Of a DNA stretch of 60,195 bases, positions 7,470 through 24,463 are shown in pieces; positions within the stretch are counted from its first letter, which is position 1; the number at the start of each line of letters is the position of its first letter. The translations under genes and the position numbers were made by a program. The DNA is from Terriglobia bacterium. GTDB taxonomy: Bacteria > Acidobacteriota > Terriglobia > Bryobacterales > Bryobacteraceae. Below the pieces are notes generated by a model. The model was not told the DNA's origin, searched no databases, and saw nothing but the letters and a program-made list of their open reading frames with translations. Location: assembly GCA_020073265.1 (NCBI GenBank), contig JAIQFN010000036.1, forward strand, positions 1-60,195. The letters run 5' to 3'.

Positions 7470-8480
7470 CTAAGGCAGAATCGCCGTGATGTTCCGCTTC
7501 GGCACCTGGCCGACCGGAATGTGCGTCACCACTTTCCGGGAATTCACGTCGATCACCGTCACCCAGTTCGATCCCGCGCAGGCCACGTACATCGACTTGC
7601 TGTCCGGCGTGAACGTAAGCCAGTCCGGATCCTCGCCCACCGGCACGCTCCCCAGCAGCTTCAGATCGGGCATCGAATATGCGAACACGTAGCCGTACCA
7701 CTTGCTGGTGGCCCAGATGGTCTTCTTGTCCGGCGAGATGCCGATGCCGTGCGACGGAGACCCTTGCACGCCATCGCTGTTCTTGGTCTTCCCCGGAACG
7801 TCGGGCAGCGTGATGCGCTGCACTTCCTTATGAGTGTCGAAGTCCACCACCGCGAACCCGTGCAGTTCGGAAATCTGCACGAACATCCGCTTGGTCGACC
7901 CATCCGGATTGGTCTCGAACGTGATCGGCCGCACCCCGTTCTCGAACGTCACGGTCCAGATCGGCTTCTCGGTCTGCGCGTCGATCACCGTCAGGATCTT
8001 CCCCACCACCGAGCCGGCCACGATGTACTTGCCGTCCGGAGTCACATAAGTGTTGTGCACCGGCCCCTTCACCGGAATGCTGTTCACCTTCTCCAGCGAA
8101 GCCGTGTCGATGACGTCCACCGCGCCCGGCCGCGCCGCGATGGAGACGTACACCTTGCGCCCGTCCTTGCTGATCGCGATGTTGTTGGGATGATCGGTGA
8201 GCGGAATGCGCCGCGTCACCTTGAGCGTCTTGGCGTCCACCACATCCAGAGTGCTCTCCGCCTCGTCGCTGATATAGTAGCGGCTTCCGTCCGGCGCATA
8301 AGTAGCGCCGTGGTTCACCTCAATCCCGCTGATGATTCCCACCACCTTATTGGTGGCCGGATCGATCAGATGAACGTTGTCGCCGGCGCTGTTGGTCTGC
8401 ACGATGCGGACCGTGCTGGCCGCCAGCGGCAGAACGAGCAGAAGTCCCAGGCGGGACCAGTTGCGAGTGCTGAGCTTCAT
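7470..8480 (-). CDS. YncE-like periplasmic beta-propeller protein
   Basis: A 336-residue protein with a signal peptide (MKLSTRNWSRLGLLLVLPLAAS) followed by repeating blades such as DVVDAKTLKVTRRIPL, DVIDTASLEKVNSIPV and TVIDAQTEKPIWTV. These are YVTN-type seven-blade propeller repeats (YncE family). Such proteins are secreted and have binding or unknown roles. I chose the ATG at 8480 because an AAGGAGG lies 10 nt upstream; the longer open frame to 8723 runs under the radical SAM gene and is not supported. It is divergent from the radical SAM gene, with 173 bp between them. Confidence 0.85.
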   Translation of the reverse strand: MKLSTRNWSRLGLLLVLPLAASTVRIVQTNSAGDNVHLIDPATNKVVGIISGIEVNHGATYAPDGSRYYISDEAESTLDVVDAKTLKVTRRIPLTDHPNNIAISKDGRKVYVSIAARPGAVDVIDTASLEKVNSIPVKGPVHNTYVTPDGKYIVAGSVVGKILTVIDAQTEKPIWTVTFENGVRPITFETNPDGSTKRMFVQISELHGFAVVDFDTHKEVQRITLPDVPGKTKNSDGVQGSPSHGIGISPDKKTIWATSKWYGYVFAYSMPDLKLLGSVPVGEDPDWLTFTPDSKSMYVACAGSNWVTVIDVNSRKVVTHIPVGQVPKRNITAILP

Positions 8481-8653
8481 CGTGGTCAAGCCTCCTTGGC
8501 AGCGCTGGAAGAGGAGTCGCGCTGGGGGCCAGTCTATCACATCGCGCAACGCCTGCAGCCGCGCGGATTCAATGACGACGCCCGCAAGGAGCTGCTGGAC
8601 CGGCCTTCCGTGCCACGTCATGATCGCGCAACGGATAATGAAAGCGGAGCCGC

Positions 8654-10021
8654 ATGAACGTTCTGTTAGTCTCGACCTACGAGCTCGGACACCAGCCGTT
8701 CGGCCTGGCATCGCCGGCCGCATGGCTCGCGCCGCACGGCCATCAGGTCGCCTGCGTGGACCTGTGCGTCCAGTCGCTCTCGGACGATGCGGTCCGCGCG
8801 GCCCAATTGATCGCGATGTATCTGCCGATGCATACCGCCACGCGCCTTGCGGTCCCGGTGATCGCCAGGATTCGCGAACTGAACCCGTCCGCGCACCTGT
8901 GCTGCTACGGCCTGTATGCGCCGCTCAACGAATCGTACCTGCGCAAACTCGGCGTCGCGACCATTCTGGGCGGCGAGTTCGAGACCGGCCTGGTTGCTCT
9001 CGCGCAACGTCTTGCGAGCGGCCTGACCGGTGGCCCGCAGGCCGAACCCGTCGTCTCTCTGGACCGCCTGCAGTTTCTGCCGCCCGATCGCTCCAGTCTC
9101 GCGCCGCTCGATGAATACGCCAGGCTGCGCATCAACGGCTCCGCACGGCGCGCCGGCTACACCGAGGCCAGCCGTGGATGCAAGCACCTCTGCCGGCATT
9201 GCCCGGTGGTGCCGGTCTATCAGGGAGCTTTCCGCGTGGTCCAGCCCGCCGTGGTGCTCGAAGACATCCGCCGCCAGGTGGCCGCCGGCGCCGAACACGT
9301 CACCTTCGGCGATCCGGATTTCTTCAATGGTCCGGCGCACGCCATGCGCATCGTGGACGCGCTGCACCGGGAATTCCCGAGCCTCACCTACGACGCGACC
9401 ATCAAGATCGAACACCTGCGCAAGCATCGCGACCTCGTGCCGCGCCTGAAAGACACCGGCTGCCTGTTTGTGACCAGCGCTGTCGAGTCCGTGGACGACG
9501 CAGTGCTTCAAACGCTCGATAAAGGTCACACCCGGGCCGACTTCATCCAGGTGGTGCGCGAGTTTCGAGCCGCCGGCCTCGCGCTTGCGCCGACCTTCAT
9601 CCCGTTCACGCCCTGGACCACGCGCGAATCGCATCGCGACCTGCTGCAGTTGCTGGTGGAGCTGGATCTGGTGGAAAACGTCGCGCCCATCCAGCTCGCG
9701 TTGCGCCTGCTGATTCCGAACGGCTCGCGCCTGCTGGAGCTTGAGGACGTAAGGTCCGCAATCACAGGCTTCGACGAACCAGCCCTGCTGCATCGCTGGC
9801 GCCATCGGGACCCGCACGTCGACGCGTTAGCCGAACAGGCTCTGAAGCTGGCCGCGCTGAAAGCGCCGCGCCGCCAGATCTTCCGCAAAATGTGGAACCT
9901 GGTGGCCTCGCAACCCCTTCCCGAAGATTTCGACCTGATGCCCCGCGCCACCGTCCCTTACCTGGACGAACCCTGGTACTGTTGAGCGGAGCCAACCGAA
10001 GAGCAGGTTGCTCTTGTGTGA
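8654..10021 (+). CDS. CUAEP-tail radical SAM selenoprotein (TGA at 9983-9985 read as selenocysteine)
   Basis: The N-terminal ~130 residues resemble a B12-binding-like Rossmann domain (MNVLLVSTYELGHQPFG). The radical SAM core follows with the 4Fe-4S ligands Cys176, Cys180 and Cys183 in SRGCKHLCRHC. An ordinary reading stops at the TGA at 9983-9985 after EPWYC. In the same frame the next codons are GCG GAG CCA, giving Cys-Sec-Ala-Glu-Pro, then TEEQVALV and a real TGA at 10019-10021. CUAEP/CCAEP is the tail motif that names a known family of radical SAM (seleno)proteins. A 7-bp stem with a GGU loop at 9999-10015 fits a bacterial SECIS. Full length is 455 residues. The start at 8654 has a GGAG 5 nt upstream. 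The reaction is unknown; a redox-active Cys-Sec pair is likely. No selABCD genes are in the window. Confidence 0.9.
9983..10021 (+). promoter_or_regulatory. SECIS-like element with the recoded TGA
   Basis: After the TGA (9983-9985) there are 13 nt, then AAGAGCA (9999-10005), a GGT loop (10006-10008) and TGCTCTT (10009-10015): a perfect 7-bp stem. Bacterial SECIS elements lie inside the coding region just after UGA and present a G-U-containing apical loop about 20-25 nt downstream to SelB. The loop G here falls at position +24 counted from the U of UGA. The element also encodes the last residues of the protein. Confidence 0.75.
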
Positions 10022-10057: not shown

Positions 10058-11899
10058 ATGAGCCTAGCTATGAAGCGCAAGATTGGCGTCCTCTTTTTCG
10101 GCCTGATCGCGGCCTCGCTGGCTCAGCGGAAGGATTTTGAACAACCGGCCATGCACGCCGCGCGCGGTACGCATGGCGCTGTCGCCGCGGGCAGCGAATA
10201 CGGCGCCGAAGCCGGGATGCGCATGTACTTCCGCGGCGGAAACGCGGTGGACGCGGGCGTCGCCACGATGTACGCGGCATCGGTCTCCGAGTTCTCCCAC
10301 TTCGGTCTCGGCGGCGAGGCGCCCATTCTGATCCGCACCAAGGCCGGCAAGGTTTACGCCATCGCCGGTGTCGGCACCATGCCCAAGCTGGCCACCGCGC
10401 AATTGTTCCGCGAGCGCAGGCCCAGGCCGTTCGAGATTATCTCGCTCGACCCTGGCGGGCTGCGCGGCATCATCCCGGTCGCGGGCATCATGCCGGCCCT
10501 GGTTCCCAGCATGGTGGAGGCCGGACTGGTGGCGCTGCGGGATTTCGGCACCAAGTCGTTCAGCGAAGTGATCGAGCCGGCCATCGAGCTGGCCGACGGC
10601 CTGCCCATCGATGAAATGCGCTCCGGCTCCATCGCGCGTTCGCGCCGCTTCTTCGACGTTTGGCCGGATTCCAAGAAAACCTTCCTGCCCAACGGACAGG
10701 TCCCCATGCCGGGCGAGATCTTCCATCAGCCCAACTTGGCGCGCACGCTGCGTTCCATGGCGGCCGCTGAGAAGAAGGCGCTGGCGGCCGGAGCAACCCG
10801 CGCCGCGGCCATCGACGCGGTCCACGACTATTTCTATCGCGGCGACATCGCGCACCGTATCGACGCGTTCATGCGCGCCAACGACGGCTTGATGCGCTAC
10901 GAGGACATGGCCGCGTTCAAGCTGCAGCCCGAAGAGCCGGTCTCCACCGACTACCGCGGATACAAAGTCTACAAGCCCGGCTTCTGGAGCCAGGGTCCCG
11001 CCATGCTCGAAGCGCTGAATATTCTGGAAGGCTTCGATCTGCGCGTCTCCGGTTTCGACACCGCCGACTACATTCACAAGTCGGTGGAGGCGCTCAAGCT
11101 GGCGTACGCCGATCGCGACGCCTACTATGGGGATCCTAAGTTCAACCCCGAACTTCCAACCGATGTTCTGCTGTCGAAAAGCTACGCTGCCGAGCGTCGC
11201 AAACTGATTGGCCGTAACGCGTCGCTGGATTTTATTCCGGGTACCATCAACGGCAAGACGCCCAAACATCCGGTGGACATGGATATCGCGCGCACCAAGA
11301 TCGACGACGAGTTGATGGCCAGCGACACCACCTGCGTGGACGCCATCGATAAGGACGGGATCGTGTTCTCCGCGACGCCGTCCGGAGCCTGGCTGCCGTC
11401 GGTCATCGCCGGCGATACCGGCATTCCCCTGACCGAACGCGCGCAGCAGTTTATTCTGGTGCCGGGATCGCCCAACGAACTGGCCGGAGGCAAGCGCCCC
11501 CGCGTCACCTTGAGTCCCACCATCGTCACCGAGCAAGGCAAGCCGCTGCTGGCGCTGTCCACTCCCGGCGGCGACAATCAGGACCAGAGCCTGCTGCAGT
11601 TGTTCCTGGACGTGGTGGAGTTTCGCATGAACGCGCAGGCTGCCGTGGAGGCCCCCCGCTATCAGACCCGCCACCTGGTCTCGAGTTTCGACAATCACGC
11701 CTGGAATCGCGGCGACCTGATTCTCGATGAACGCATTTCTCAAGGCACCGCCGCCGAGCTGGCCGGGCGCGGGCACAAGGTCAGCTTGCATTCCAAGTGG
11801 TCCAGCGGAGCCGCGCCGGTCATGATCCGGGTGACGCCGGAAGGCGCGATTGAAGCGGGCGCCGATCCTTACGGATACCGCGTCGCCCACGCCTACTAA
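10058..11899 (+). CDS. ggt: Gamma-glutamyltransferase family protein (Ntn hydrolase)
   Basis: A 613-residue protein with a signal peptide (KRKIGVLFFGLIAASLAQ) and the full GGT architecture: GGNAVDAGVATMYAASV near residue 60, a large subunit, and the self-cleavage site DTTCVDAIDKDG with Thr424 as the expected nucleophile. It ends with GRGHKVSLHSKW and PYGYRVAHAY. These periplasmic enzymes cleave gamma-glutamyl bonds in glutathione or transfer the group. The usual TTH is TTC here, as in several bacterial members. The start at 10058 has a GGGG just upstream; the ATG at 10070 is an alternative. It follows the selenoprotein gene by 36 bp and may share its transcript. Confidence 0.9.
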   Translation: MSLAMKRKIGVLFFGLIAASLAQRKDFEQPAMHAARGTHGAVAAGSEYGAEAGMRMYFRGGNAVDAGVATMYAASVSEFSHFGLGGEAPILIRTKAGKVYAIAGVGTMPKLATAQLFRERRPRPFEIISLDPGGLRGIIPVAGIMPALVPSMVEAGLVALRDFGTKSFSEVIEPAIELADGLPIDEMRSGSIARSRRFFDVWPDSKKTFLPNGQVPMPGEIFHQPNLARTLRSMAAAEKKALAAGATRAAAIDAVHDYFYRGDIAHRIDAFMRANDGLMRYEDMAAFKLQPEEPVSTDYRGYKVYKPGFWSQGPAMLEALNILEGFDLRVSGFDTADYIHKSVEALKLAYADRDAYYGDPKFNPELPTDVLLSKSYAAERRKLIGRNASLDFIPGTINGKTPKHPVDMDIARTKIDDELMASDTTCVDAIDKDGIVFSATPSGAWLPSVIAGDTGIPLTERAQQFILVPGSPNELAGGKRPRVTLSPTIVTEQGKPLLALSTPGGDNQDQSLLQLFLDVVEFRMNAQAAVEAPRYQTRHLVSSFDNHAWNRGDLILDERISQGTAAELAGRGHKVSLHSKWSSGAAPVMIRVTPEGAIEAGADPYGYRVAHAY

Positions 11900-23416: not shown

Positions 23417-24463
23417 TCAGCAGATGCGCGGGAGCTGTTCGACGAACGGAAGGTCGAGAATTCTGGAGCCGCCGATTTCGGTTTTGAGAACGGCCATTCC
23501 CGGATGACTCGCCACCACGCGTCCTATGATGCACGCGGCGCGGCCTTGCGGCAGGGTGCGCATGGCATCGAGCACGGCTGGAGCGCTGGACTCGGACACC
23601 ATGGCGACCAGCTTGCCTTCGTTGGCGACGAACAGCGGATCCATGCCGAGCGTCTCGCAGGCGGCCTTCACGTCTTCGCGCACCGGGACCGCGTTGGCGT
23701 CGATCTCGATGCCGGCGGCGGACGCAGCTGCGATCTCGCACAGCGAAGTGCCCAAGCCGCCGCGCGTGGGGTCGCGCAGGGTGTGCACTTCTCCAGCGGC
23801 GGTCATCGCCTCGACCAGGGCGTTGAGGGGAGCGGTGTCAGAGAAGATGGCGCCTTCGAACTCGAGGCCTTCGCGCTGGGACCAGACCGCCATGCCGTGA
23901 TCGCCGATGGTTCCGCTGACTAGGATCACGTCGCCGGGTTTGGCGTTGGACGCGGAGATGGAGACGCCGTCGGGGACCAGCCCGATGCCGGCGGTGGTGA
24001 TGAACAGCTTGTCGGCCGAGCCGCGGTTGACGACCTTGGTGTCGCCGGTGACGATCTGGACGCCCGCTTCCAGAGCCGCTGCGGCCATGGACTGGGTGAT
24101 GCGCGCCAGATCCTCGAGCGGCAGACCTTCTTCCATGATGAACGCGGCCGACAGGAACAGCGGGCGCGCGCCGGCCATCGCCAGATCGTTGACGGTGCCG
24201 TTGACGGCCAGTCTTCCGATGTCGCCGCCGGGGAAAAACAGCGGCGTCACGACGAAGGCGTCGGTGGTCAGAGCGATGCGCGACGGACCGACCTCGAGTA
24301 CGGCCTGGTCGTCCAATTTGCGCAGCGCGGGATTGTCGAAAGCAGGCAGGAAAAAATCGCGAACCAGTTGCGCCGTCAGCCGGCCGCCGCTGCCGTGGCC
24401 CAGCACGATGGTCTTGTGCTGCGTGATCGGTACCGGGCACGCCAGAGCGAACGGGGTGTCCAT
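23417..24463 (-). CDS. hypE: Hydrogenase maturation protein HypE (carbamoyl dehydratase)
   Basis: A 348-residue AIR-synthase-fold protein: IVLGHGSGGRLTAQLVRDFF at the N-terminus, NGTVNDLAMAGARPLFLS, and DPTRGGLGTSLCEIA. It ends in PRIC, the HypE C-terminal cysteine that receives the carbamoyl group from HypF and is dehydrated to thiocyanate for the CN ligands of [NiFe]-hydrogenase. It overlaps the SIS gene stop by 1 bp. The related selenophosphate synthetase SelD was excluded because its N-terminal Cys/Sec loop is absent and the PRIC end is present. Confidence 0.95.
   Translation of the reverse strand: MDTPFALACPVPITQHKTIVLGHGSGGRLTAQLVRDFFLPAFDNPALRKLDDQAVLEVGPSRIALTTDAFVVTPLFFPGGDIGRLAVNGTVNDLAMAGARPLFLSAAFIMEEGLPLEDLARITQSMAAAALEAGVQIVTGDTKVVNRGSADKLFITTAGIGLVPDGVSISASNAKPGDVILVSGTIGDHGMAVWSQREGLEFEGAIFSDTAPLNALVEAMTAAGEVHTLRDPTRGGLGTSLCEIAAASAAGIEIDANAVPVREDVKAACETLGMDPLFVANEGKLVAMVSESSAPAVLDAMRTLPQGRAACIIGRVVASHPGMAVLKTEIGGSRILDLPFVEQLPRIC

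Follow-up and report, generated by a model that had tools for sequence, protein, structure and literature searches.

A predicted radical SAM selenoprotein with a CUAEP tail in Acidobacteriota, its kinship with ArsL and its ATP-grasp ligase partner

Introduction

Judged by sequence, ArsL (NF040542) is by far the nearest other family to the radical SAM protein described here. In Escherichia coli, ArsL converts As(III) to hydroxyarsinothricin, for which an aminocarboxypropyl (ACP) radical has been proposed (PMC8552651), and a 2025 review citing Yao et al. (2024) states radical SAM-catalysed transfer of the ACP group to arsenic as shown (PMC12159101). Radical SAM proteins containing selenocysteine (Sec) have also been described, e.g., TIGR04167 and TrsS (NF045646), which constitute families other than NF040546, the family of concern here; in the main text of the review that covers them, NF040546, CUAEP and CCAEP are absent (PMC13188914). 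With regard to a possible downstream enzyme, the L-amino-acid ligase BL00235 is reported to make Met-Ala (PMC4302092).

The family NF040546 (rSAM_CUAEP) has already been named, its name states no function, and the novelty of the present gene as a member is modest. Our literature search for CUAEP and NF040546, narrow enough to leave an earlier account possible, found no paper.

The gene, its reading frame and its family

The window, i.e., the whole analysed stretch of 60,195 nucleotides from a Terriglobia bacterium, contains the following features:

8654..10021, + strand: predicted CUAEP-tail radical SAM selenoprotein gene, 455 amino acids with Sec444, stop included in the coordinates; NF040546, 638.7 bits; frame read directly
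9179..9202, + strand: codons of the radical SAM motif C176-x3-C180-x2-C183 (CX3CX2C), all three Cys unchanged across the 44 aligned members
9983..9985, + strand: TGA predicted to be read as selenocysteine (Sec444), beside Cys443; a Cys codon stands here in 23 of 81 sources, and the genome has the Sec machinery
9986..10018, + strand: tail AEPTEEQVALV, of which AEP is the part conserved as a protein motif, in 81 of 81 sources
9999..10015, loop 10006-10008, + strand: putative SECIS-like hairpin AAGAGCA-GGU-UGCUCUU inside the coding tail; comparative evidence, Sec forms only
10019..10021, + strand: true stop codon TGA; frame read directly

The frame starts with ATG at 8654 and stays open for 443 codons up to that of Cys443 (9980-9982). 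Re-reading reproduced exactly the coordinates given in a preliminary description of this DNA, as well as its two lengths of 443 residues for termination at the first TGA and 455 for read-through. Radical_SAM is the sole Pfam domain match of the 455-residue protein (E up to 0.001), and cobalamin dependence was rejected on the grounds that no B12-binding domain was matched at the same threshold. An open reading frame for a beta-propeller protein (7470-8723, - strand) overlaps the start of the gene; its true start probably lies near 8480, ahead of a signal-peptide-like stretch.

Against NF040546, the 455-residue reading scores 638.7 bits over residues 3-453, 138 bits above the cut-off of 500. The next families are ArsL with 266.6 bits, below its cut-off of 450, and one with 50.4 bits. 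The whole protein and the C-[U/C]-AEP tail agree with NF040546 and no difference was found, so that the gene is a member; the assignment to radical SAM (seleno)proteins with a CUAEP/CCAEP tail, made from the letters alone, is thereby borne out.

Selenocysteine and cysteine among the relatives

A scan of genome contigs matched at least 593 stretches, at least 570 of which encode a relative. The best 80 loci, ranked by whole-protein similarity to a query that included the tail, were kept and form, together with the window, the 81 sources referred to throughout. According to their record titles, these 80 stem from Acidobacteriota (72), Methylomirabilota (4), Chloroflexota (2), Latescibacterota (1) and Actinomycetota (1). 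A script searching for EPW-x-C-[C/stop]-AEP located the tail in every source, and all of the best 80 relatives end in C-[U/C]-AEP. The codon for residue 444 is TGA in 58 sources and a Cys codon in 23 (TGC 19, TGT 4), in agreement with the earlier statement that Sec is sometimes Cys in this family. AEP comes next after all 58 TGA codons and all 23 Cys codons, while the third positions of its codons vary (GCG/GCC, GAG/GAA, CCC/CCA/CCT/CCG). Because AEP is kept in all sources while third codon positions vary freely, the tail is beyond chance, as had been supposed, and the alignment of homologues does not halt at the TGA. The 44 members aligned out of the 81 sources (A2) show no variation at Cys443, at residue 444 or in AEP.

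For residue 444, a quick tree with four ArsL proteins as outgroup (95 rows, 70 Sec and 25 Cys, including two identical pairs, one of which is the window entered twice, as win and L114) requires at least 12 changes, nine of them forced by the starred branches, compared with 22.3 in shuffles. Of the 30 loci from the genome profile search, only the + strand was read for this tree, so that 17 of them were left out; with both strands read, the tail is found in 27 of the 30 (23 Sec, 4 Cys) and in none of L107, L108 and L119. Sec may be old in the family, since the branch that parts first from the ArsL side consists of Sec forms in all seven of its rows (support 92).

A plasmid search added a member from Thermomicrobium roseum (44.1% identity over 98% of the query). 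On the plasmid NC_011961.1 (L127:8935-10371), the public CUAEP entry ends in ...ESWFC, and the next codons read TGA-AEP. The gene is thus cut short wherever TGA is read as a stop, and even an entry bearing the family name stops at the Cys.

Selenocysteine machinery and a SECIS-like hairpin

The genome from which the window stems (6.41 Mb, 98% complete) contains selA (442.6 bits), selB (384.6 bits) and selD (376.5 bits) as well as a tRNA-Sec of 76 bits for which ARAGORN gives the anticodon TCA. A second locus scores 48.1 bits against the tRNA-Sec model (cut-off 47); this model matches in 14 of 14 control genomes, in five of them over the cut-off, and only the 76-bit locus is trusted. All components that the preliminary description had proposed to look for are therefore present. 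SelD of this genome (L012, contig C85:8028-8939) itself carries an in-frame TGA at its G-x-ASK motif and, by sequence, is a selenoprotein, which makes it very likely that TGA is read as Sec elsewhere in the genome, too. A second, weak SelD-like match in the window (23591-24325, - strand, 57.3 bits, in a frame of 493 amino acids) is perhaps another member of the SelD superfamily.

The case for a SECIS element is comparative, because the 39 bases of the window folded alone yield a z of only -1.15 and prefer a competing stem as the lowest-energy fold; judged from the window alone, the hairpin was rejected as not significant. Among the Sec sources, all six tested pairs are present in 48 of 58, five in nine and four in one, whereas all six are found in two of the 23 Cys sources, with the better of two registers taken for both groups alike. 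In some pairs both bases have been exchanged, A-T having become C-G or G-C, and nine Sec sources keep the hairpin with the 3' arm shifted by one base. The mean hairpin score is 16.25 for 57 Sec sources vs. 9.73 under synonymous recoding (z 17.7; L051, which ends at a contig edge, was left out) and 10.43 vs. 9.57 for the 23 Cys sources (z 1.7). Cys forms keep AEP and vary in the later residues, five of the 23 tails stopping three or four residues past AEP. From this comparison, AEP appears to serve the protein and the residues beyond it mainly the SECIS element. Comparing Sec and Cys forms thus parts two constraints on the tail, one on AEP, which stays, and one on the SECIS-serving residues, which decay once Sec is replaced by Cys.

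These observations bear on the simplest alternative, namely that the protein terminates with residue 443 because of the TGA and that AEP is encoded behind it by chance. The weakness of the window's hairpin as a single sequence would fit such a stop, as would the public entry for the T. roseum protein, which ends at the TGA position. Against it stand the occurrence of AEP in 81 of 81 sources, the Cys forms that read on through AEP, the complete Sec machinery and a hairpin kept in TGA forms only. A plain stop codon was rejected on account of the ubiquitous AEP and has a negligible probability; the comparison leaves hardly any doubt that the gene encodes a real selenoprotein.

A partner ATP-grasp L-amino-acid ligase

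Clustering of the open reading frames around the loci revealed one leading neighbour, present in 45 of the 81 sources; it shares the strand of the enzyme in 44 and lies immediately downstream of it in 37, counts that are limited by the many flanks ending at contig edges. The protein combines ATP-grasp_4 with LAL_C2, the C-terminal domain of L-amino-acid ligases (four members scanned). Its closest solved structure is BL00235 (225.8 bits), and BacD is matched with about 104 bits; unlike these two, the ligase is always or nearly always found with this radical SAM enzyme.

We searched 297 Acidobacteriota genomes with the NF040546 cut-off for the enzyme and, for the ligase, with a profile built from 12 ligases found with the enzyme (A1, E up to 1e-60). 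The enzyme occurs in 48 genomes, the ligase in 54, both in 48 and neither in 243, i.e., the ligase is present in 48 of 48 enzyme genomes vs. 6 of 249 others, kinship of the genomes being uncorrected. Two of the six (G080, G213) contain the enzyme in split pieces, and the other four (G017, G057, G226, G278) have no good enzyme match; among the 243, one genome of 71% completeness (G099) lacks the ligase and contains part of the enzyme, matched with 269.7 bits. The 48 enzyme genomes are spread over 24 families, and in one of these, f2, four genomes have both genes and the other listed ones neither. In 32 of the 48, enzyme and ligase are encoded within 1.5 kb of each other, and in 20 of these 32 the ligase gene follows downstream in the same orientation; the genes are 29.8 kb apart in one genome and on different contigs in 15. 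In the window's own genome, the two are separate, the ligase being encoded on contig C42. Outside the Acidobacteriota, seven of eight genomes contain the ligase, two of which had contributed rows to A1; it was not found with A1 in the T. roseum plasmid record. On this comparative evidence, ligase and enzyme very probably belong to one pathway.

The same genomes relate the enzyme to Sec synthesis. All 37 enzyme genomes with a TGA in the match, counted as any TGA within the genome-search match, contain selA, as do eight of 11 enzyme genomes without one and 192 of 297 genomes overall. Three of these 11 matches (G188, G128, G001) end before the tail, and five of the other eight genomes have selA. 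The remaining three (G088, G269, G293; 97-99% complete) lack selA, show no stop in the match and have the ligase adjacent, so that a need for Sec itself was rejected.

Other neighbours are less constant. A gamma-glutamyltransferase-like gene (10058-11899, same strand, 280 bits vs. a cut-off of 357.85) starts 36 bases past the selenoprotein stop in the window. It was rejected as a pathway partner because it is not a constant neighbour: only two of the 80 loci contain a homologue, L016 at about 3.2 kb downstream (81% identity) and L029 upstream (48%). YggX (one member scanned) lies near the enzyme in 30 of the 81 sources, a gene that by eye resembles that of the Fe-S scaffold NfuA stands between enzyme and ligase in two loci (L096:3089-3691, L102:535-1212), and genes that look nadA-like (14 of the 81 sources) or aconitase-like (15) recur upstream.

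Kinship with ArsL and predicted structure

In addition to the T. roseum member and one other radical SAM protein, the plasmid search returned 16 RCCLKC/ArsL proteins that cover 86% of the query at 29.9-34.7% identity. ArsL is related to the CUAEP protein over residues 3-397 and shares with it the CX3CX2C motif, a C-terminal W-x-H-x-D stretch and a CC/CU pair at the very end. Aligned, four ArsL and seven CUAEP proteins have R-G-C-x2-x-C-x2-C, D-x-D-F/W and, before the terminal pair, W-x-H-x-D-x3-D-x-L in common; the aligner did not match the two tails consistently, column by column, and their homology is our reading of the alignment. The families differ in that the ArsL tail reads RCCLKC as opposed to CUAEP with Sec, and the CUAEP gene does not lie in an ars operon, as would be expected of ArsL. 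When 14 proteins from ArsL loci were searched in the 81 sources, no ars cluster was seen near the enzyme; ArsL itself aside, one ArsC-like match (L018) and one weak ArsM-like match (L038) were returned. Since ars genes are missing from its surroundings, arsenic is doubtful as the natural acceptor.

Ten loci of the 16 plasmid matches were viewed, and nine of them, from Priestia (4), Pantoea (3), Alicyclobacillus (1) and Klebsiella (1), have an ATP-grasp gene within 5 kb of ArsL (L128, L130, L131, L139-L144); the Pseudomonas locus has none within this distance. Three of the encoded proteins (one partial) score 63-98 bits against A1, below BL00235, and by these scores are relatives and not clear orthologues of the ligase. 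The clustering of ArsL with an ATP-grasp gene hints at arsinothricin-type peptides.

AlphaFold2, run on the 44 members, predicted a structure with a mean pLDDT of 92.6 and about 72 over residues 441-455. The best fold match of the model is AprD4 (PDB 6fd2, TM-score 0.67, 16% identity), a B12-free radical SAM dehydratase of aminoglycoside biosynthesis that shares the fold and is without a Sec tail.

Discussion

Based on the comparisons above, we propose that SelB, guided by the hairpin past the UGA, would insert Sec444 beside Cys443 and thus yield the C-terminal C-U-AEP tail. With the help of this Cys-Sec tail, presumably located at the active site, the ArsL-like enzyme would make a new amino acid, a methionine-like 2-amino-4-X-butanoate, which the partner ligase would join to another amino acid to give a peptide. 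For this explanation as a whole, i.e., a selenoprotein with ArsL-like chemistry and a ligase-made peptide, we estimate a probability of about 0.5. From the kinship with ArsL we infer the type of SAM cleavage, the acceptor atom and the product, and ACP transfer of the ArsL type by the CUAEP enzyme is advanced tentatively, as a serious candidate that falls short of being probable. The formation of Met-Ala by BL00235 and the methionine-like nature of ACP products fit the order of the steps without proving it.

The same pathway could also rely on ordinary 5'-deoxyadenosyl-radical chemistry, with the Cys-Sec pair acting as a redox couple or as the hydrogen-atom donor that ends the radical reaction. 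The nearest fold being that of a B12-free dehydratase points in this direction and counts against ArsL-type chemistry; the replacement of Sec by Cys about 12 times resembles redox selenoproteins, and adjacent Cys-Sec at the C-terminus is a redox centre in thioredoxin reductase. However, the nearest family by far is ArsL, with a comparable terminal cysteine pair, and although ordinary radical chemistry deserves to be taken seriously, we think that it probably does not apply. A tail without a direct part in the reaction, which would instead sense the redox state or bind a metal or auxiliary Fe-S site, might explain why confidence in the model drops over the last residues and why several neighbours look related to Fe-S clusters or iron (YggX, NfuA-like); such a role appears improbable, as the complete invariance of Cys443, residue 444 and AEP would be unusual for a mere sensor.

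Returning to the proposed ArsL-like chemistry, its most specific form, which is speculative and on balance doubtful, would have the Sec enzyme join the ACP group of SAM to a thiophilic atom held by Cys-Sec, and the ligase make a new small peptide from the product. Enzyme and ligase would then represent a widespread two-enzyme pathway, mostly of soil Acidobacteriota, whose peptide might be a metallophore, a thiol-like cofactor or an antimetabolite. It would also be the first case that we know of in which Sec takes part in a non-canonical cleavage of SAM.

The interpretation given in the preliminary description is supported, and the reaction and pathway, on which it was silent, are advanced by ligase partner and ArsL kinship without being proven. 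In the literature found by our narrow search, neither the partner ligase nor the two constraints on the tail nor the link to ArsL is mentioned, and we consider these findings new. With the near-strict association with the ligase and the relationship to ArsL, a selenoprotein family that had a name but no explanation can be framed as a two-step pathway amenable to testing.
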